Below, in pieces: positions 5,922-20,309 of a stretch of DNA of 29,369 nt (its first letter is position 1; every line of letters starts with the position of its first letter). The translations under genes were made by a program, and so were the position numbers. The DNA is from a virus. Where the stretch lies: the IMG/VR virus record IMGVR_UViG_3300027752_000072, positions 1-29,369 of that record, one strand, 5' to 3'. The notes beneath the pieces were generated by a model, which was not told the origin of the DNA, made no database searches, and worked only from the letters and a program-made list of their open reading frames with translations.

Positions 5922-6446
5922 TTACTTGTTTAATACTTTACGTTTAATTTTGTTTAACACTTTTAGTCTTTGCTTCAGTTCCATTTTAGTTTTAAACGGA
6001 CCTTCGTAACCATATGTTATTAGTGTATTTAGCTTAGGGCAATTGCCGTGCTTCCAACCCTTTTCAAAGTTAATAGCATACCATCCTGCCGCATAGTAGA
6101 CTGTGCTGTTCTCTGTCTTAGCAAACAACGGAATCTCTTCCATGTAGTCTGGGTGTGCTTGGTCAATTGGTACAGGATTAGGATAGTCAACTGCAAAGCC
6201 TTTGATATAGAATGTACCTGGCTGTGTGATGTCAAGTTCAGTCTCTTGATCAAAAACAAACTTGTTCTTGAACGCTTCTTGTACTGCCTCTTGGTCTTCA
6301 AACAGAATAGTCTCAGTCTTATCTAAGTAAGTGTACTTGTCCTGAATTGTTTTATGTAGGATGCCTACATGCTTTTCATTATCGTTTACAATCCAAGCGT
6401 CTTCACTTATCTTTTGTAATTTAATTTGCTCTTTGAACTTAATCAT
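5922..6446 (-). CDS. Conserved-type hypothetical phage protein
   Basis: The 174 aa protein starts MIKFKEQIKLQKISEDAWIV. The ATG at 6446 is chosen because GGAGAAG precedes it closely; in-frame starts further upstream would lie within the previous small gene. Features are an N-terminal beta-rich part (HVGILHKTIQDKYTYLD), a middle with many Pro/Asp residues (FAVDYPNPVPIDQAHPDY) and a strongly basic C-terminus (LKQRLKVLNKIKRKVLNK). The start overlaps the stop of the 55 aa gene. No enzymatic motif is seen. Its position just downstream of RNase H, in a replication/late-transcription neighbourhood, is suggestive, but the function is unknown. Confidence 0.72.
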   Translation of the reverse strand: MIKFKEQIKLQKISEDAWIVNDNEKHVGILHKTIQDKYTYLDKTETILFEDQEAVQEAFKNKFVFDQETELDITQPGTFYIKGFAVDYPNPVPIDQAHPDYMEEIPLFAKTENSTVYYAAGWYAINFEKGWKHGNCPKLNTLITYGYEGPFKTKMELKQRLKVLNKIKRKVLNK

Positions 6447-8482: not shown

Positions 8483-9370
8483 TTACTTACCTATTGCATT
8501 TCCGTAGATATGAACATGCACTCTACTTGTATAATTATAGCCACGTTGTATTGCCTCATCGGCTATTGTGGCTTCTGTTTGTACCAGCCCTTCAAACGTT
8601 CCACCTACACCCATAACCCATACAGGGAAATTACATCCTGCATCTCTGAATGCTTTAGTGTGTTCTTCTACTTCTTTCCAACTCTCTTCAGTACCATTCA
8701 CTACAAACTTTAACTGTCCACGCGGTGATACTTCTGCATACCTGCCAACTACTTCTGGCTTAATTGCTTTAGAGTTCTTCTCTCCAGCAGTTGCCCAAAG
8801 TTTAGGACTAATGCTCCAGTACCACTCTTTACCTTCGCACCTAGTGTAGCAACGTTGAATGTAATCAGCAAACTCATCTGTAATAGCTCTAGTGCCATTT
8901 GTTTCTACTGTAACATAGTTAGGCATGTTATCTCTTTTAGCAAACTCATCTAACACACCAATCATACCTGGCTGTGTGTTTTTAAGCATAGGCTCGCCAC
9001 CTGTAAACACCATGTGTGTCTCATTTAATGTTGCAGGGTGAATAAAGTTACCGTGCGGTAGAAGGGCTGTAAGTTCGTCTACTGCCTCCTCTACCGTCTT
9101 ATCGGTAATAAGGTGCTTGTAGCGTTTGCTCCAAGTGTAACTACTGTCACATCCCTTATCAAAAACAGGTAAATCAAACACGTTGTCGATGTTTGTTATA
9201 TCAATTGTTTCGTACGGTAACTCATATGTACTAGAGTCTGTTGGATCTGTTTGTCCAAATCCGTTACATTGCAGATTACATAAGAAGAATCTCATCCATA
9301 GACTTGGAACGCCAACATAAGAACCTTCGCCCTGTGCTGAGTAAAACGTTTCGCTATATTTGAGAGTCAT
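8483..9370 (-). CDS. queE: QueE-like radical SAM enzyme (7-carboxy-7-deazaguanine synthase)
   Basis: The 295 aa protein starts MTLKYSETFYSAQGEG at 9370, behind GAGGTGAC; in-frame starts further upstream lie deeper in the previous gene. YSAQGEGSYVGVPSLWMRF is the QueE N-terminal signature. The [4Fe-4S]-binding cysteines are C31, C35 (LCNLQC) and C74 (KGCDSSYTW), so the third is displaced by a 38-residue insert. TGGEPML (the SAM-binding GGE motif), VETNGT and WSISPKL (in the position of QueE VSPK) follow in order. QueE converts 6-carboxy-tetrahydropterin to 7-carboxy-7-deazaguanine. With FolE and QueD in the same window this forms a near-complete pathway. The family call is secure. Confidence 0.92.
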   Translation of the reverse strand: MTLKYSETFYSAQGEGSYVGVPSLWMRFFLCNLQCNGFGQTDPTDSSTYELPYETIDITNIDNVFDLPVFDKGCDSSYTWSKRYKHLITDKTVEEAVDELTALLPHGNFIHPATLNETHMVFTGGEPMLKNTQPGMIGVLDEFAKRDNMPNYVTVETNGTRAITDEFADYIQRCYTRCEGKEWYWSISPKLWATAGEKNSKAIKPEVVGRYAEVSPRGQLKFVVNGTEESWKEVEEHTKAFRDAGCNFPVWVMGVGGTFEGLVQTEATIADEAIQRGYNYTSRVHVHIYGNAIGK

Positions 9371-9893
9371 TGTCACCTCGTCTCTCAATAAACTCTGCAT
9401 AATCTAAGTCGTCTTTAGTTGTTTCAAAATCGTTAATTACGTCTGGCACTGCTATTTGCATTGCTTCATTTACTAACAAGTGAATAGGATCTGTTAGCAC
9501 TTCGTTGTTCTCAAACATCTCAATGTTCTCCAACGTACAGATTCTTAGTCCTTGATTCATTAACTTGGCAAAGTCTCTTACTTCAGCATACTCTCTATGC
9601 CCTACACTCAATAACTTCAAGTATACAGTTTGGTGTAAGTTAACTACCTCTATCACTATCTCATCAGTAGTGCCCGTGTTCTGCACATCCAATAAGTGTT
9701 CTTGTTCCGCTTGAGGAATTTGTGTATGCTCTGCATAAAAATGCACACTCTCAAATATATCTTCCTCTGTTAGTTTAGGGAAGATACCTTGTAGCATTTC
9801 AATAGTTCTGCCTTGTCCGATCTTATTACAGATGGCATCAACTGGCACTAACCCGTTAGACGTTACAAACGAGTTTCTTCTCTTTTCAATCAT
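9354..9893 (-). CDS. Hypothetical protein of the SDR-queE operon
   Basis: This 179 aa acidic protein starts MIEKRRNSFVTSNGLVPVDA. It overlaps the upstream degenerate SDR-like gene by 4 nt (ATGA) and queE by 17 nt, so it is tightly bound to that operon. Its middle (IEVVNLHQTVYLKLLSVGHR) is followed by EYAEVRDFAKLMNQGLRI and an acidic tail rich in Asp/Glu. No family is recognised. Its context suggests a role linked to the deazaguanine or SDR genes, but nothing in the sequence shows it. Confidence 0.75.
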   Translation of the reverse strand: MIEKRRNSFVTSNGLVPVDAICNKIGQGRTIEMLQGIFPKLTEEDIFESVHFYAEHTQIPQAEQEHLLDVQNTGTTDEIVIEVVNLHQTVYLKLLSVGHREYAEVRDFAKLMNQGLRICTLENIEMFENNEVLTDPIHLLVNEAMQIAVPDVINDFETTKDDLDYAEFIERRGDNDSQI

Positions 9894-10423
9894 GCACTTA
9901 CTCCTAGCGGTTTATTTAATATGAGCTGGCTGGGCCATACTCTCTTACTGTTCTCTATGACATGTGTAAACAACTTAACGTGTGCTTCGATCATGTCGTC
10001 TCTATCCATGTATGCATTGCATAAATTAGGACCTTCTGCCCTAGCATTAAATACAGTAGTAATAGCATTGAACATAACGTTGTCGCTTCTGTACTGCTTA
10101 CTACCTGACCAGTCCTCTGGTTCAATCAATGCACACATATCTATCATGTTAATAATGTATTTTACACTATTTCGGTCCCACTTGTCAAGAAATATTTCAG
10201 AAAGTTTGGCTTGCCCGTGTACTTCATTCTTTATACCATCTTGCATTGTGTACTTGTTATTTAGGCAAAAGTCCACATCATCAGCCAATTTCAGCGTGTC
10301 TAATATGCTCTGTGAGTCGTTTAAGTCTGTACCGGCTACTGTTATGTCCCATCCTTTCTGTATAAAAGCATCCTTTAGAGCCATATTCAACGGCGTTGTA
10401 TCGTCTATCATTAGTATTTTCAT
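9890..10423 (-). CDS. Degenerate SDR-like protein (third tandem paralogue)
   Basis: The 177 aa protein aligns by eye with the two upstream SDR-like proteins: LNNKYTMQDG against FNNAYGRMQN, KLSEIFLDKWDR against LLKQFCDAWKGR, GPNLCNAYMDR against GPNICDFSMGM, and RVWPSQLILNKPLG against TIWPREAVFDNPG. The nucleotide-binding glycine loop is replaced by MIDDTTPLNMALKD, and the catalytic YxxxK becomes YRSDN (Y111, N115). It is therefore probably not an active oxidoreductase, and may act as a partner subunit or a reshaped binding protein. It overlaps both neighbours by 4 nt. Confidence 0.65.
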   Translation of the reverse strand: MKILMIDDTTPLNMALKDAFIQKGWDITVAGTDLNDSQSILDTLKLADDVDFCLNNKYTMQDGIKNEVHGQAKLSEIFLDKWDRNSVKYIINMIDMCALIEPEDWSGSKQYRSDNVMFNAITTVFNARAEGPNLCNAYMDRDDMIEAHVKLFTHVIENSKRVWPSQLILNKPLGVSA

Positions 10424-11064
10424 AAGGATCCTTCCATCTGTGATATCTCATATGGGCCATATTCTTTGCGTCCTGGGTTATCAAACACTGCCTCGCGAGG
10501 CCATATGGTTTCTTTATTGTCTATAAACATAACCAGTTGTTGTCCATAGTCTTCTACTTCACCTCTAATAAAGAAGTCGGGCCATATGTCAGCCATAGGT
10601 GTGTCAAACATTCCCATGCTGAAGTCACATATATTAGGCCCTAGTCCTATATAGGTCTTAATTAATGTAGTACAATCCATCTTGTCTAGTCTATATGTTT
10701 TAACTTGTTTACTTTTTTGCATGTTCTTGTATACAATCTTACTGCCCGAGTGTAAGATATACTTATCAGTCCTACCTTTCCAAGCATCACAAAACTGTTT
10801 TAATAAATTAAGTTGTCCGTTTTCACCTCGTTTCCAATGCTCAGGGATATCATCAAACTCAATATTTTGCATTCTACCGTATGCATTGTTAAAAAATAAG
10901 TCGGCATCTAAGTTCTCTAGCAATATAGTATCTCTAACATCTGGATCGTTAATATCATATCCTGTACTACGCGAATAACCATTTACTGTATGTCCTTGGG
11001 CAACCATGGCATCACTTACATACTCGCCTAGTCCTGTTTTGTGACCTGTTATTACTATCTTCAT
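10420..11064 (-). CDS. SDR-family oxidoreductase-like protein (second tandem paralogue)
   Basis: The 214 aa protein has a Rossmann nucleotide loop ITGHKTGLGEYV (about 5-16), FFNNAYG (the NNAG-type motif, 57-63) and YRLDK, the SDR catalytic YxxxK (Y124, K128). Short-chain dehydrogenases of this type oxidise or reduce sugar, alcohol or ketone groups using NAD(P). It shares blocks with the proteins on both sides (AFDAW-type region, GPNICDF, TIWP near the C-terminus), so it arose by tandem duplication. It overlaps each neighbour by 4 nt (ATGA). The substrate is unknown. Confidence 0.75.
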   Translation of the reverse strand: MKIVITGHKTGLGEYVSDAMVAQGHTVNGYSRSTGYDINDPDVRDTILLENLDADLFFNNAYGRMQNIEFDDIPEHWKRGENGQLNLLKQFCDAWKGRTDKYILHSGSKIVYKNMQKSKQVKTYRLDKMDCTTLIKTYIGLGPNICDFSMGMFDTPMADIWPDFFIRGEVEDYGQQLVMFIDNKETIWPREAVFDNPGRKEYGPYEISQMEGSL

Positions 11065-11720
11065 TCTATCCCAAAGTCCTTAATGAATTTTGCTCGATTT
11101 TCGTCTTGGTCTGGTAAGTCAACGTATATCTCGTCTACCCAAATTGATTCTCTATCTTCTAATATGTTAATAACATAGTCACCGAAGTCGCTCATGTCTG
11201 CTCGGTCAAGTTGTGTTATATAGTCGCTAGTGATACTGTCACCTAGTAAATGTGTTCTAGCCTCATCCGCAGGCTTTACATAGAATCCCATGTTGAAGTT
11301 ACATACGTTAGGACCATTCGGTTTCGTCTTCTTCCACGCCTTTATTATCTTTGTATGACGTTGTTTATCTAAGGAATACTTCTTTAATCGTAAGTCTCGT
11401 TGCGGTGTCTTTAAACCAGCAGTACTTCCAATTGACATGATGTATTTGTTTGTGCCTGCCCAAGCATCTAGGAATAACTTTAGCAGTTCGTTCTGACCAC
11501 ATGTTCTTTCATACACATTTAGCTCGTAAGCATTGTTGACTAGCACATCATAGTTGCTGTATTGTTCTACTAACCAATCTCTATCTTCTGGGACAGAAAC
11601 ATTCCATGGTGTGCTGTCTAATATGTCAACGCCTTTAACTGTGTGTCCACTAGCAATGCAGGCGTTGTATATGTACTTACCGATGCCACTTAAATGTCCG
11701 GTTACAAGTACCTTAGCCAT
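11061..11720 (-). CDS. SDR-family oxidoreductase-like protein (first tandem paralogue)
   Basis: This 219 aa protein is the most canonical of the three tandem SDR copies: VTGHLSGIGKYI (6-17) has the TGxxxGIG loop, VNNAYE (61-66) the NNAG-type motif, and YSLDK supplies YxxxK (Y115, K119), with SIGST before it as the likely catalytic Ser region. It starts 5 nt after the folE stop and overlaps the next paralogue by 4 nt. The neighbouring folE and queE suggest involvement in a pterin/deazaguanine-linked or sugar-linked reduction, but no known pathway step requires it, so the substrate is open. Confidence 0.8.
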   Translation of the reverse strand: MAKVLVTGHLSGIGKYIYNACIASGHTVKGVDILDSTPWNVSVPEDRDWLVEQYSNYDVLVNNAYELNVYERTCGQNELLKLFLDAWAGTNKYIMSIGSTAGLKTPQRDLRLKKYSLDKQRHTKIIKAWKKTKPNGPNVCNFNMGFYVKPADEARTHLLGDSITSDYITQLDRADMSDFGDYVINILEDRESIWVDEIYVDLPDQDENRAKFIKDFGIE

Positions 11721-11725
11721 TACAC

Positions 11726-12415
11726 TTATTTACTTCCTGCAAATGAGTGCTGGAGTTTAATGTTATCCATAAACTCTTGTTGTACCTTTGCTTCTGCCTT
11801 GAACGCACCTTTAAGTACTGTAGTCTGTGTCAAACTACTCGTAGCCATAATGCCTCTATTTTCACAACAACCGTGTGTGGCTTGTATATAGACGCCTACG
11901 TCCTTACTACCAGTGGCACTCATAATCTCTTTAGCAATGTCATTACATAGTTCTTCTTGTAACGTACCACGCCTAGCACACCACTGTGCGATTCGTGTGT
12001 ACTTGCTTAACCCAATTAGTGTGTCAGCGGCAATGATACCAATGTATGCAACGCCTGATACTGGCTGGTGATGATGTGAGCAAACACTTTTAAGTTCACT
12101 ACGCACTACTAACATGCCTTCGTATCTATCTTCTGTTACGTTAGGAAATGCTGTAGCATTAGGCATAGCTTCGTACCTGCCTACCATTAGTTCTTTGATA
12201 TACATCTTCGCAAGACGTCTACCTGTATCCTGACTGTTAGGATCGTTCTCAATATCAATAACAAGTCCTTCTAGTACTGCTTCAAACTTAGGCGTTAGCT
12301 CTTCGATGAGTGCTTCTTTATCGCCGTCTTCTAGATACTTACTAATGTTACTACCAGCCCAAAACTTTCCGCCATCAGCTTTGATACGTTGTTTTATTTG
12401 GTCACTCTTACTCAT
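11726..12415 (-). CDS. folE: GTP cyclohydrolase I (FolE-like)
   Basis: The 229 aa protein contains DTGRRLAKMYIKELMVGRY (63-81), the zinc/active-site motif SVCSHHHQPVSGVAY (C112, H115), ARRGTLQEELCNDI (in place of RLQVQERLT) and IQATHGCCENRGIM (H181, C183). All three expected zinc ligands (Cys, His, Cys) are present. The enzyme converts GTP to dihydroneopterin triphosphate, the first step of both folate and 7-deazaguanine synthesis. With queD and queE nearby, the latter pathway is the better reading. It lies 3 nt after the stop of the DUF465-type gene region and 5 nt before the SDR genes, in one operon. Confidence 0.93.
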   Translation of the reverse strand: MSKSDQIKQRIKADGGKFWAGSNISKYLEDGDKEALIEELTPKFEAVLEGLVIDIENDPNSQDTGRRLAKMYIKELMVGRYEAMPNATAFPNVTEDRYEGMLVVRSELKSVCSHHHQPVSGVAYIGIIAADTLIGLSKYTRIAQWCARRGTLQEELCNDIAKEIMSATGSKDVGVYIQATHGCCENRGIMATSSLTQTTVLKGAFKAEAKVQQEFMDNIKLQHSFAGSK

Positions 12416-13348: not shown

Positions 13349-14329
13349 TTATAAAAATTTCTTTAACTTTGTTTTCTGCCATCTAATCTCATCAGCAACA
13401 ATATCTGATATTGTTAACTCTGGAGACCAGCCTAATATCTTCTCTGCAACTGTAATATCTGCATGAGTTTGTACCATGTCACCGAGCCTACTTTGTGTTA
13501 CTAATGTGTGTATTGGCTTTTCTAACTGTGTTTCAACTTCCTTAATAAGCTCTAGTAAGCTCACAGGATTGTTGTTACCAATATTAATTGTACCACTAAG
13601 ACTTGTGTCTAGCATGAAGTATCCTGTGTTATGGAATGCTTTAGCAACATCAACTACGTGAGTATAGTCTCTAACAGGTGTGCCGTCAGGTGTTGCATAG
13701 TCGTTCCCGTTGATTGTAAATGTTTCGCCTAACAATGCCTTTTGTACTAGGATTGGTAGGACATGCTTCAACGGATCTTTCTGATAACCAAACTTACCAT
13801 TGTTACTTCCTGCTACATTAAATAGTCTCAGGTTAGTATAGTTAATGCCATACGTTCTAGCATAGTCTTCGATAATCTTCTCACACATTACCTTTGTTCT
13901 GCCATATGGATTAATTGGTGAAGTTGGGTCTGTCTCTTTAAAGGACCCGTCTTCATGTATACTTGTACCGTATACACTACTGCTTGATGCAAATATAAAG
14001 TTCTTAATGCCTGCATCGACACAGTTGTTTAACAAACTAAGAGTGGCGCCAACATTGTCTGTGTATGTAACTCTAGTATTAACTAGACTGTCCGGTACAC
14101 TATTGTTAGCCGCAATATGAATAACGATATCAGGCTTAATTAGTTTAAGTATGCCTTGCACTTGTTTGTTGTCAACTTCGAACGGATATTGTGTTACGCC
14201 ATCCATTTCTCTTTTACGCTTGTCAATGTTAATTACATTCCAGCCGCTGTCAACGAACGTCTTGCAAACATTACTTCCTATGAAGCCACTGCCACCAGTG
14301 ACCACTACTGATCTTATATCTTTACTCAT
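13349..14329 (-). CDS. galE: UDP-glucose 4-epimerase-like (GalE family)
   Basis: The 326 aa protein is an extended SDR: TGGSGFIGSN (11-20, NAD loop), FASSSSVYG (113-121), YGRTK (YxxxK, Y142 and K146), LRLFNVAGSN, and DGTPVRDYTHVVDVA near the end, which is characteristic of GalE. The length is close to the usual 330-340 aa. It interconverts UDP-glucose and UDP-galactose, or the N-acetyl forms. It overlaps the upstream glycosyltransferase gene by 4 nt, so supply of a nucleotide sugar to that enzyme is the natural reading. Specificity for Glc versus GlcNAc cannot be told. Confidence 0.9.
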   Translation of the reverse strand: MSKDIRSVVVTGGSGFIGSNVCKTFVDSGWNVINIDKRKREMDGVTQYPFEVDNKQVQGILKLIKPDIVIHIAANNSVPDSLVNTRVTYTDNVGATLSLLNNCVDAGIKNFIFASSSSVYGTSIHEDGSFKETDPTSPINPYGRTKVMCEKIIEDYARTYGINYTNLRLFNVAGSNNGKFGYQKDPLKHVLPILVQKALLGETFTINGNDYATPDGTPVRDYTHVVDVAKAFHNTGYFMLDTSLSGTINIGNNNPVSLLELIKEVETQLEKPIHTLVTQSRLGDMVQTHADITVAEKILGWSPELTISDIVADEIRWQKTKLKKFL

Positions 14330-15381
14330 AATTTCTTACCTCGAATTATATCGTATAAGGCTGTCCCACCAAAGAATTCATTCTTTAATGTCTCTGCCTG
14401 TTCTACTATTTTCTCACTGTTATCAAAGTCAAACAACATCATTTTAATGTATTCGACTAACCTGTCTTTGTGTACCATATATGAGTCCCAGTCCTCTGTC
14501 CACTCACTTGGATACTTAAATGCTTCGTCATACATTTCTGTGTAACTTAACCTATTAGGAACAATCGGTGCCGCACCTACTAATGCTCCTTCGTAGCAAC
14601 TTATGCCTAGTGTCTCTTGTTGATTAGCACTAAACACAATCTTACTTCTACTCAATAACATATGGTACTCGTCTTTTGTTAGTTGCCTTTCTTGTGCAAC
14701 AACGAACTCCGCCGATGGTATTGATTCACCTAAGTCTTTAAATATTTCTACTTGCTTCTCAGGTGCTACTCTGTGTGGGAATAAAACCATAGGGATCTTA
14801 TTGGCTGGAATATTATATGTGAACAATACGTCCTCCATATACTCCATGGGCCAACCCACCCTATGTATCTTACTCGTATCTGCGTTTGGAAACGCATCCA
14901 TAAACATATCAATATGGAAGTCTGTGGCAAAGAAGTTATGATCGAATGTCTCGAACATACTCTCCTCTGCAAGCCTAACCCACTTAGCATCGCCAATTAG
15001 TCTACCTAAAAAGTCTGCTGGGTCATACGAACCTGCATGCCACATACCACCAATTTGAATGTTAACGCCTAGCAACTCTGCCATATATTTTAGTTGAAGA
15101 ACTGTCGGGTTCCAAGCATCAGTATACAAGAAGTAATCGCCCTCTTGTACTGTGCCGTTAGCAAACATTTGACTAATAGTCTTTAACTGTTCGCTTTTCC
15201 AGTAGTTTGTTCCACTAAAGTTTAAGAAGGCACCCGGAGTTGTATCCTGCGGTGCATCTCCTGGTCCTGTAATGACCGTTACATCGAGCCCTGCTTCACG
15301 CATCTGCGTAGGAAGATGCTTCTTCCACTGAGCTGTGTATCGAGTTTCTACTGGTTCTAATTCAACTAAAAATACTTTCAT
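14326..15381 (-). CDS. GT-B-fold glycosyltransferase
   Basis: The 351 aa protein shows the two-domain GT-B layout. The N-terminal half starts MKVFLVELEPVETRYTAQWK. The C-terminal half contains VLFPHRVAPEKQVEIFKDL (the conserved phosphate/loop region of GT4-like enzymes), LLSRSKIVFSANQQETLGIS and CYEGALVGAAPIVPN, the E-x7-E-type donor site region. It has no membrane segment, so it acts in the cytoplasm. The 4-nt overlap with galE suggests the two act together. The acceptor could be phage DNA, a virion protein or a glycan; the sequence does not decide. Confidence 0.8.
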   Translation of the reverse strand: MKVFLVELEPVETRYTAQWKKHLPTQMREAGLDVTVITGPGDAPQDTTPGAFLNFSGTNYWKSEQLKTISQMFANGTVQEGDYFLYTDAWNPTVLQLKYMAELLGVNIQIGGMWHAGSYDPADFLGRLIGDAKWVRLAEESMFETFDHNFFATDFHIDMFMDAFPNADTSKIHRVGWPMEYMEDVLFTYNIPANKIPMVLFPHRVAPEKQVEIFKDLGESIPSAEFVVAQERQLTKDEYHMLLSRSKIVFSANQQETLGISCYEGALVGAAPIVPNRLSYTEMYDEAFKYPSEWTEDWDSYMVHKDRLVEYIKMMLFDFDNSEKIVEQAETLKNEFFGGTALYDIIRGKKL

Positions 15382-18200: not shown

Positions 18201-18500
18201 CTATTCTCCTTCTGTTTGTACAGCTACTACACTGTTGCCTTTGATAAACAAATAGTCTATCCCGTCAATCTTTAATCCTTCGCCATGTCCTTTAATGAAC
18301 AGAACAACATCGCCTTCATTAAGACCAATTGGTTCTCTAACTCCCAAGCCGTTGTATGCACCCGGTCCCACTGACACGACTGTGCCTGAGATTGGTTTGT
18401 CTACTGCACCAGCTGAAAGTATAATACCTCCGCCAGTAACTGTTTCTGATTCTGTTTCAACAACGACAATGAAGTCGCCTTGTGCTTTTATTTTACCCAT
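18201..18500 (-). CDS. GroES-like co-chaperonin (gp31-like role)
   Basis: The 99 aa protein has the Cpn10 layout: IKAQGDFIVVV at the N-terminus, a mobile-loop region ETVTGGGIILSAGAVDKP (about 20-37, with the hydrophobic GGIIL that contacts GroEL), SGTVVSVGPGAYNG, LNEGDVVLFIKGHGEGLKID and YLFIKGNSVVAV. T4 gp31 replaces host GroES so that GroEL can fold the major capsid protein; this protein probably does the same. It overlaps the upstream dehydrogenase gene by 13 nt. The family assignment is strong. Confidence 0.88.
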   Translation of the reverse strand: MGKIKAQGDFIVVVETESETVTGGGIILSAGAVDKPISGTVVSVGPGAYNGLGVREPIGLNEGDVVLFIKGHGEGLKIDGIDYLFIKGNSVVAVQTEGE

Positions 18501-19417
18501 GTTATATAATTCCTTAGTATATCTTTACCGTTAATTCTGTTGTCGAATGCCTCTTTGGCATTGTCTCTATCGTAGCCTTCGCCCCATAGATGATTTACTT
18601 TAATTTTGCCTTTCTTAACTAACTGTTCTGCTTCTATCATACTATTAATGAAGTCAGGGTTCCTTGGACTAGGACATTTAATTGTAATGTTCTCCCACAG
18701 AAACTTGCTGAAGTCTAAGTTATCAACTACTTTCTCCGCACCAACAACATACGTTCCGTTTGTTTTAACATAACCGTTATGCATGTATTGTGGCTTACTA
18801 GACAAGTCAATGAAGGCATCGAAGCCTTGTTGCTTCTTGTGTACATCTAGGTGATGTCCACTATGACTAATAAAGTCTACATCGGTTGCCGTTTCCCAAT
18901 AGTCTTTAAATCCTCTGCCATATACTGTGAAGTCTGAATAGCCATTATGTTTTAAGTAATCGTATATAACTCTTGCAAGAAAGCCTGAGCCAACAATAGC
19001 AATGCTCTTGCTCAAGTCTTTGTCCATAATACTCTTAGCAATGTTAATGCCACATGCAACTGGCTCTAATATATATCTAGGTGACGCTTGCGATACTTTA
19101 ACGAAGCTACCTATTGGAGTGTTGTAGTAATCAGCAAACCCAGGCTCGCCTCTAGTAGCAACTATGTCGCCTACTTTAATACCACTGCTACTCACTCCGG
19201 TCTTAGAACCTAACTTGGTTACTTTACCAATACATTCATGTCCTTGTATTTCTTTAGGCAATGTAGTAAACGTGCCGTCATACATAGCAACATCACTACT
19301 ACAAATGCCTGTGAGAATACTTTGTACTTCTATCTCATTTGCTTTAGGCTCAGGCTTGTCCCAGATAGTTTCAATAATATCTCTATTGCCTGTTGTGTGT
19401 AAGAGTTTAACCTTCAT
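18488..19417 (-). CDS. Medium-chain zinc-dependent dehydrogenase
   Basis: The 309 aa protein is an MDR-family (alcohol/sorbitol dehydrogenase-like) enzyme: LTGICSSDVAMYDG (C39), GHECIGKV (H60, E61), EPVACG (E118, as in sorbitol dehydrogenases) and the NAD loop IVGSGFLARV (141-150). The catalytic zinc site looks intact, while the structural zinc lobe of four cysteines is absent, which explains the shorter length. It overlaps the Gfo/Idh/MocA gene by 11 nt. The pair could modify a sugar or polyol; the substrate is not visible. Confidence 0.85.
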   Translation of the reverse strand: MKVKLLHTTGNRDIIETIWDKPEPKANEIEVQSILTGICSSDVAMYDGTFTTLPKEIQGHECIGKVTKLGSKTGVSSSGIKVGDIVATRGEPGFADYYNTPIGSFVKVSQASPRYILEPVACGINIAKSIMDKDLSKSIAIVGSGFLARVIYDYLKHNGYSDFTVYGRGFKDYWETATDVDFISHSGHHLDVHKKQQGFDAFIDLSSKPQYMHNGYVKTNGTYVVGAEKVVDNLDFSKFLWENITIKCPSPRNPDFINSMIEAEQLVKKGKIKVNHLWGEGYDRDNAKEAFDNRINGKDILRNYITWVK

Positions 19418-20309
19418 GATAAACCTCTAAGTGTTTGTGAATCCATGTGTCAATAGTCTTATGTGTGTCATAGTCTTCTATTTGACCTTTCTCAATCATC
19501 TCACCATATGCTTCTGCAGGACACAATCCAAAGTCCCACTTGTAGGAACTGTCAGTAGTCTGTACTACAATGCTCTGGTCATCAATACCTTCCTTCCAAC
19601 TAGCACTTACTTCTACTATAACTTTATCGTTAAGTAACCACTTCTCTGTGGCATAGTCGCATACATCATATACGCCGTCAACATTAACAGCACCATAGTC
19701 TGATCCTGTTAAGTCTTCTAAGTTCCATTTCTGCATCATTAAATGATTAACTCTAGTAAAGTTTTCTATCTTACCAAAGTGTGTAAGCAGTTGACAATAT
19801 AAGTGTGGGAATAAATCTAATGCAACTCCGCCCCACGATTGCTTTCTGTTTGTACTCCAATAGCCTGCGTTAGGAACTCTGTTCTTGTTCAGCCAGTTAA
19901 CTTTGATGCTAGTAATATCATCGATAGTACCAACGTTGTCTAAGAATCCGTAAGTATCTCTGTACATATTATTCTTGCACATAATAAACTTAGTGTGTGG
20001 ATGCTTGTCGCACAAAGCATTCCATTGATCCGCACTAGGCAAGCCAGGCTTCTCAATGAATACAACTTTAGTATAAGGTGCAATGCTGTCAGCAAAATAT
20101 GTATGCAAAAAGTTAGGCACACATATCACTGCTACATCAAATACACCATTTACTGTGTCAATTGTTGTATGGTCTGCTGGGTTTGAATTGTCAACAGTTG
20201 TTACATCGTAACCAAGTTTCATTAACTCAGTTAGATATACATTGCCACCAATACCGCCTACGCCTATTAGTAATGCACGTTTTCCGTTATCGTTGACAAG
20301 TTTCACCAT
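19407..20309 (-). CDS. Gfo/Idh/MocA-family oxidoreductase
   Basis: The 300 aa protein has the Rossmann loop LLIGVGGIGGNVY (13-25), VAVICVPNFLH and the family signature EKPGLPS (EKP at 86-88). WGGVALDLFPHLYCQLLTHF gives the conserved Asp...His of the C-terminal domain. Members oxidise sugars, sugar nucleotides or inositols with NAD(P). It begins on the stop codon of the transglycosylase gene (TAATG) and overlaps the dehydrogenase gene, so three enzymes are translated as a unit. Which carbohydrate it acts on is unknown. Confidence 0.87.
   Translation of the reverse strand: MVKLVNDNGKRALLIGVGGIGGNVYLTELMKLGYDVTTVDNSNPADHTTIDTVNGVFDVAVICVPNFLHTYFADSIAPYTKVVFIEKPGLPSADQWNALCDKHPHTKFIMCKNNMYRDTYGFLDNVGTIDDITSIKVNWLNKNRVPNAGYWSTNRKQSWGGVALDLFPHLYCQLLTHFGKIENFTRVNHLMMQKWNLEDLTGSDYGAVNVDGVYDVCDYATEKWLLNDKVIVEVSASWKEGIDDQSIVVQTTDSSYKWDFGLCPAEAYGEMIEKGQIEDYDTHKTIDTWIHKHLEVYHEG

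Follow-up and report, generated by a model that had tools for sequence, protein, structure and literature searches.

Three overlapping short-chain dehydrogenase/reductase genes in a phage genome fragment, one of them devoid of the cofactor loop and of two catalytic residues, Ser and Lys

Pseudoenzyme subunits seem to be rare among the short-chain dehydrogenase/reductases (SDR) – BbsCD is the one case that can be named here. According to the title of the study by von Horsten et al. (FEBS J., cited in PMC10818641), BbsCD is a heterotetrameric SDR with inactive pseudoenzyme subunits. A comparable gene arrangement is found in IMG/VR virus record IMGVR_UViG_3300027752_000072, the whole 29,369 bases of which (the window, below) were analyzed and read as those of a marine-type phage. 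Three tandem genes in the window, A, B and C, encode SDR paralogs, of which A and B have complete motifs and C is degenerate. As in BbsCD, an intact and a degenerate paralog are encoded by neighboring genes – B and C overlap by 4 nucleotides, and their order is the same in the other record in which C was found, L004 – and BbsD (7pcs_B, E 3e-10) is in the set of PDB sequences matched by a profile of the phage family. Unlike the phage set, BbsCD is bacterial, acts on a coenzyme A substrate, has longer proteins (248 amino acids in BbsD) and is a demonstrated complex, whereas a complex of the phage proteins is putative; the phage set is phage-borne, has three genes, and its C protein is short and poor in the substrate lid.

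The human mitochondrial heterotetrameric ketoacyl reductase (4cql and 4cqm, which we take to be HSD17B8/CBR4) is also a hetero-oligomer of two SDR paralogs, with a division of labor between the subunits. It is a structural neighbor of B (Z 18.7), but at 15% identity it shows no closeness beyond the SDR fold. Atypical SDR of the NmrA type lack YxxxK and usually keep the dinucleotide loop; C is like them in having the fold without the catalytic Tyr/Lys pair, and unlike them in having lost the loop. Among phage families, only phrog_3142, a FabG-like 3-oxoacyl-acyl carrier protein reductase, is clearly matched by relatives of A, B and C (4e-15 for L025, 9e-15 for L039); it is matched at 0.031 by A, at 0.013 by B and not at all by C, and the phage SDR described here are short. 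No SDR triplets or pseudo-SDR in phages were found in the open-licence PMC literature with the terms that were searched.

The evidence supports C as a maintained protein that, in its predicted structure, keeps the SDR fold without the cofactor loop or the catalytic Ser and Lys. Its relationship to A and B is well above chance. In BLASTP comparisons, A and B align at 1e-34 (33% identity over 217 residues), B and C at 5e-13 (24% over 200), and A and C at 4e-8 (26% over 148). Local alignment scores for the same pairs are 286, 132 and 96, relative to means of ca. 31–32 for shuffled sequences (Z of 50, 20 and 13), and none of 500 shuffles reached the score of any pair. By the same test, A, B and C show no likeness above chance to the GalE-type SDR of the window (scores reached by 74, 207 and 311 of 500 shuffles). 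An earlier reading of the letters without database searches (the sequence-only reading) had described three tandem SDR-like paralogs with 4-nucleotide overlaps, to be checked by pairwise alignment; the alignments bear this out, and the coordinates, strand and open reading frames (ORFs) are as it described them. The overlaps between A and B, B and C, and C and the next gene, orf9354, are exactly 4 nucleotides each, and 5 nucleotides separate folE from A. Pfam and NCBIfam scans found fragments of SDR models only in A and B, and left C without a match; nor did C match another enzyme family in the family-library searches that were run.

A, B and C belong to a large family of short SDR in uncultivated phages. 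A profile of the three proteins found 47 relatives in IMG/VR, and a wider profile found 248, 80 of which were kept. After removal of repeats, there were 126 members in 112 records, counting the window; one of these is a metagenome-assembled genome (MAG) contig from GTDB, and a single distant MAG contig was all that one genome scan yielded. A 26-row family profile matches 296 distinct PDB sequences at E ≤1e-5 (best 8.5e-16), which places the family among the SDR. It is compact, with a median total length of 187.5 amino acids in the 72 aligned rows from outside the window and L004. Isolated phages have little that is comparable: tblastn of A, C and L031 against 50,697 phage records found no match, and B matched eight Serratia phage records with its first 73 residues only (best E 9e-3). 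Searches with the ORF of record L135 and with L097 found four and seven isolate records, respectively, Vibrio phage Va2 among them, but the two adjoining SDR of Va2 are ordinary, longer and unlike C.

For comparison of residues, numbered as in B, 78 rows were aligned: A, B, C, their L004 orthologs, and 72 other members. These were drawn from 89 representatives, which remained of the 126 members once near-duplicates and a single truncated row had been removed. Among the 11 representatives outside the alignment are L019 (two copies, with loops TGHTSVIG and SGNEYKGLS), L021 and L018; those that depart from the loop or the NN motif still show YxxxK. The motif sets are TGHLSGIG/NNAY/YSLDK in A, TGHKTGLG/NNAY/YRLDK in B, and IDDTTPLN/NNKY/YRSDN in C. 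T6, G7, G11, G13, A61, Y124 and K128 are shared by A and B, by the L004 orthologs of both, and by 72 of the 72 other rows; all are altered in C and its L004 ortholog (C'), save the Tyr that window C retains. In C and C' the columns of T6, G7, H8, G11 and G13 hold I, D, D, P or T, and N. In the YxxxK of window C, Lys is replaced by Asn, and in C' the Tyr is replaced by Phe as well; a regular-expression search finds a YxxxK in C', but it is out of register, and the alignment gives F and N at those columns. At S108, the catalytic Ser column, C and C' have Asp; Ser is found in 65 of the 72 other members as well as in A, B and the L004 orthologs of these two. N59, N60 and Q84 are invariant in all 78 rows, C and C' included.

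A and B thus have the TGxxxGxG loop of classical SDR, an NNAG-type motif (NNAY, with Tyr in place of Gly as in 68 of the 72 other rows), and the Ser108, Y124 and K128 set; their classical site is complete, and they are predicted to act as NAD(P)-dependent oxidoreductases on ketones and alcohols. C has neither the loop nor the full Ser/Tyr/Lys set. Its replacement loop, IDDTT(P/T)LN, is itself conserved between the window and L004 (12 of 13 residues in the loop, 10 of 10 in helix 1). The lid region is also reduced – the four shortest among the 78 aligned members are those of the second copy of L126, the partner copy of L043, C' and C. In the regular-expression search, 116 of the 126 members show all three motifs. 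The ten that do not are C, C', L067, the L019 pair, and the partner copies of L018 and L021–L024; L067 (loop TGHTQGFG) failed only because the pattern demanded I, L or V. Another 81 members, from 71 records and with 53 distinct sequences, were added later and judged by regular expression, outside the alignment. Several of these fail one expression, and the only ones without YxxxK are L220 and L221, which are distant SDR of 254 amino acids, and the truncated L281. The intact glycine loop and YxxxK that the sequence-only reading gave to the first two genes are therefore present; of the two losses it gave to the third, the loop is gone and so is the Lys, but the Tyr is still in window C.

The predicted structures and the rates of substitution indicate that C has been maintained. 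The AlphaFold model of C (pLDDT, the predicted local distance difference test, 90.4) has an SDR fold, with its best match to 3tfo_D (Z 17.8, root-mean-square deviation 2.6 over 171 residues), as does that of B (pLDDT 89, Z of about 19–20.6). C is 79% identical to its L004 ortholog, and the ORF is intact in both phages. The ratio of non-synonymous to synonymous rates (dN/dS) between the window and L004 is 0.09–0.10 for A, 0.12–0.13 for B and 0.14–0.18 for C, comparable to folE (0.11–0.16) and queE (0.11–0.13); these are pairwise estimates from two genomes, and for A, dS approaches saturation (about 2).

In phylogenetic trees, the SDR of record L057 falls in one clade with A, B, C and the three orthologs from L004 (support 97/95, or 99/97 with L135 added), which agrees with the duplication and later divergence suggested from the sequence and places the duplication within a single lineage. 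In every tree, A pairs with B (91/69, 95/65, 97/92 and 98/92). C stands apart on a stem of ca. 2.4–3.0 changes per site and groups with L057/L135 at 90/83 in one analysis; because of the long branch, its exact branching is unsure. A stepwise decay from A to B to C, as the sequence-only reading had it, is ruled out: neither A nor B has lost any motif, each is the closest paralog of the other, and the loss is confined to C with no intermediate.

All SDR of this clade are found between folE and queE (four of four records: the window, L004, L057 and L135), in a slot whose contents vary. The slot of L004 has a 79-amino-acid ORF followed by A, B and C, with the order A-B-C-orf9354-queE as in the window. 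That of L057 has a SET domain gene, an FkbM methyltransferase gene and one SDR, and that of L135 has an ORF like the SET gene of L057 followed by a single ORF of 338 amino acids. The SET-domain genes that follow folE in this variable slot are at 1735–2967 in L057, with the FkbM methyltransferase gene, and at 6386–6742 in L135. Ten other records (L136–L139, L141, L143, L147, L149, L156 and L186) have no SDR here – folE is directly followed by a relative of orf9354 and then queE, with one extra ORF between the last two in L139. Relatives of orf9354, of about 180 amino acids, are the constant gene between folE and queE; they were found in 12 of 81 loci, namely the ten SDR-free records, L135 and L140 (which is L057). 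No good match of orf9354 to a named phage family was found, and none in the isolate phages searched. This comparison suggests that a conserved unit of three genes has taken up the SDR as cargo, with the duplication taking place within the slot, and the SET and FkbM methyltransferase genes of L057 likewise make the slot resemble a cargo site. The operon between folE and queE that had been proposed is thus real as a setting, but orf9354 lies between C and queE, and the unit exists without SDR in the ten records. The search for the same triplet beside folE and queE in other phages, also proposed, found one, in L004; the slots of L057 and L135 differ.

The ORF of L135 (6988–8004) is an intact SDR joined to a degenerate SDR-like half. 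Residues 1–204 are 36% identical to B (6e-40) and have TGHTRGLG, NNAF and YRKTK; in the remaining 133 residues, inspection by eye shows no YxxxK helix in register. A profile built from A, B and C together with the L004 orthologs gives this tail 21 bits, a score that none of 2000 shuffles and none of 2561 other ORF pieces reached. An hhalign comparison gave 63% probability (E 7e-5) with the three-protein profile of the window and 14% with the 78-row profile. The tail had been picked by eye and cut at residue 205 before testing, so that these statistics carry some selection. On the profile scores, the tail is probably a degenerate SDR-like half homologous to the family; its ranking against individual members (below) does not support orthology with C. 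The last scan, which covered 71 loci including L135 itself, showed no further fusion of that length.

The simplest fit to the maintenance of C, its fold, the lost cofactor and catalytic residues, the overlapping genes and the L135 fusion is a hetero-oligomeric reductase in which C is a pseudoenzyme subunit with B and/or A, comparable to BbsCD in bacteria. Short copies beside a longer intact SDR elsewhere in the family (below), and the short lid that the L043 copy shares with C and C', also count in its favor. One short phage SDR gene would have been inserted between folE and orf9354-queE, and at least two tandem duplications would have given A, B and C. In the course of this, C would have lost dinucleotide binding (the glycine loop), the Ser, the Lys and much of the substrate lid, but not the Rossmann core, the NN motif or the invariant Gln. 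It would then pack against B and/or A, stabilizing or tuning the active subunit, and the overlapping start and stop codons may couple synthesis of the subunits. The non-catalytic partner of the sequence-only reading is therefore plausible, with some support from the intact SDR fused to a degenerate half in L135.

Several observations weigh against this explanation. C is present in two records only, and the lone SDR in the slot of L057 evidently does without a partner. The L135 tail scores 11 bits with a C/C' profile (reached by 1 of 2000 shuffles and 0 of 2561 pieces) and 4.3 bits with the whole-family profile (reached by 87 of 2000 and 23 of 2561), and in a pairwise global test against the tail, C ranks 16th and C' 33rd of the 89 members. 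Finally, the short partner copies in L043, L235 and L021 keep YxxxK and so are not inactive like C; what they have in common with C is the shortened form, not the catalytic loss. Because C is in two records only and its partnership is our inference, the chance that C is such a subunit is put at about even.

More than one family member was found within the fetched flanks in 12 of the 112 records; L021–L024 share identical proteins with one another. L039, L097, L043, L021–L024, L235–L238 and L240 have adjacent pairs, and L018 a near pair. Short copies of 149–156 amino acids directly precede a longer intact SDR in L043 (7998–9061), L235 (5001–6079) and L021 (7547–8591). In L043 and L235 the short copy (155–156 amino acids) overlaps the longer gene by 4 nucleotides; such overlaps in short-partner pairs are found in L043, L235–L238 and L240, in another part of the family from A, B and C. 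The short partners of L021 and L018 have a GSNKGLG loop and no NN motif, with YxxxK kept. A broader proposal is tentative and more doubtful than the subunit role itself: phages may repeatedly duplicate a minimal SDR, strip one copy of the lid, the cofactor loop or catalytic residues, and sometimes fuse the two, and the window would then encode a three-subunit enzyme in which a dead subunit controls two active ones. The intact, degenerate, single-copy and fused versions in one genomic slot would provide a natural series for following the loss of catalysis into a partner role.

It is possible, though unlikely, that C is a pseudoenzyme independent of A and B, which by itself or with different partners would, for instance, have a regulatory or ligand-sensing role like that of NmrA-type atypical SDR. 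Regulatory roles for SDR-fold proteins without a canonical site are described in a passage on BssK and in the title of a cited NmrA paper (both in PMC7285207), and the conserved replacement loop could be a property of such a protein. However, both records with a C gene have it immediately after B, with the overlap in the window, and in L135 a degenerate half is fused directly behind an intact SDR. Less probable still is a gain of function, in which C would be a neofunctionalized enzyme that uses a novel chemistry or cofactor and whose replacement loop binds a ligand different from NAD(P). Strong purifying selection, the conserved loop, and NN and Gln retained in 78 of 78 rows would fit this, but the Ser, the Lys and, in L004, the Tyr are gone, the lid is shortened, and there is no match to another enzyme family.

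Also improbable is that the cassette serves the FolE/QueE route to a pterin or 7-deazaguanine, with A and B reducing a pterin-like product as sepiapterin and dihydromonapterin reductases do. The position between folE and queE in all four clade records is in its favor, as is the ranking of sepiapterin reductase (2bd0, Z 20.6) first among the solved neighbors of B, although other SDR are tied within 1 Z and 2bd0 is behind many FabG entries when compared with the family profile (E 3e-10). The ten SDR-free records speak against it, since an intact folE-orf9354-queE unit without SDR means that a deazaguanine function of A, B and C is not implied; so does the cargo-like content of the L057 slot. In the wider family, folE was found in 7 of the 47 records searched and adjoins the SDR only in L004. 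The constant linkage to folE, queE, queD and queC that marks a queuosine/7-deazaguanine enzyme is not seen for these SDR, and neither QueD nor QueC was found in the window and L004, both of which are fragments. Flanking genes elsewhere are very mixed (156 genes from 79 records fall into 76 single-linkage clusters), with no single pathway standing out, and the folE/queE setting is ruled out as a guide to function. Neither this setting nor the sugar-metabolism genes of the window decide the substrate, and in phages a metabolic gene may lie between folE and queE without serving deazaguanine synthesis. The last alternative, a decaying duplicate on its way out, would account for the long branch and the lost residues of C but is very improbable: as a pseudogene, C is ruled out by its dN/dS, its 79% identity to C' and the intact ORF in two phages.

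The genes of the cassette are transcribed on the minus strand in the order phosphoribosyltransferase, two small ORFs, folE, A, B, C, orf9354 and a queE-like gene (Table 1).

Table 1. Genes of the SDR cassette and its borders in the window
Gene	Position	Strand	Motifs or best match
folE (GTP cyclohydrolase I), upstream border of the cassette	11726..12415	-	Pfam PF01227 5e-39
A, SDR paralog, 219 amino acids, motifs complete	11061..11720	-	TGHLSGIG 11679-11702; YSLDK 11364-11378
B, SDR paralog, 214 amino acids, motifs complete	10420..11064	-	TGHKTGLG 11026-11049; YRLDK 10681-10695
C, degenerate SDR paralog, 177 amino acids	9890..10423	-	IDDTTPLN 10385-10408; YRSDN 10079-10093
orf9354, 179 amino acids, downstream border, accompanies folE and queE	9354..9893	-	weak DUF433 likeness (3e-4)
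queE-like radical SAM gene	8483..9400	-	phrog_2076 1.3e-52

An ORF of 201 amino acids lies antisense to C at 9921–10526 (+) and is most likely due to chance; it displaced C as a flanking neighbor in the cluster count above, where one neighbor is therefore an artifact. The larger flank clusters include beta-hydroxylase-like and radical SAM genes (ten proteins were scanned, five of them without a Pfam match). Radical SAM-like genes are also abundant in the large phage contigs G003, G013, G016 and G040 (L006, L016, L019 and L043), with 7–10 phrog_2076 matches each; these contigs also encode members of the SDR family described here.

Elsewhere in the window, a DNA polymerase gene matches phrog_262 (5e-196) and is presumably of the family B type. 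The nearest isolate relatives of a ribonuclease/exonuclease gene are large phages, e.g. Pseudomonas phage PA5oct (52% identity). A galE-type epimerase, a weak glycosyltransferase-like ORF, and oxidoreductases with ADH_N and GFO_IDH_MocA domains are encoded at 13349–15381 and 18488–20309 (-), a possible sugar-metabolism module.

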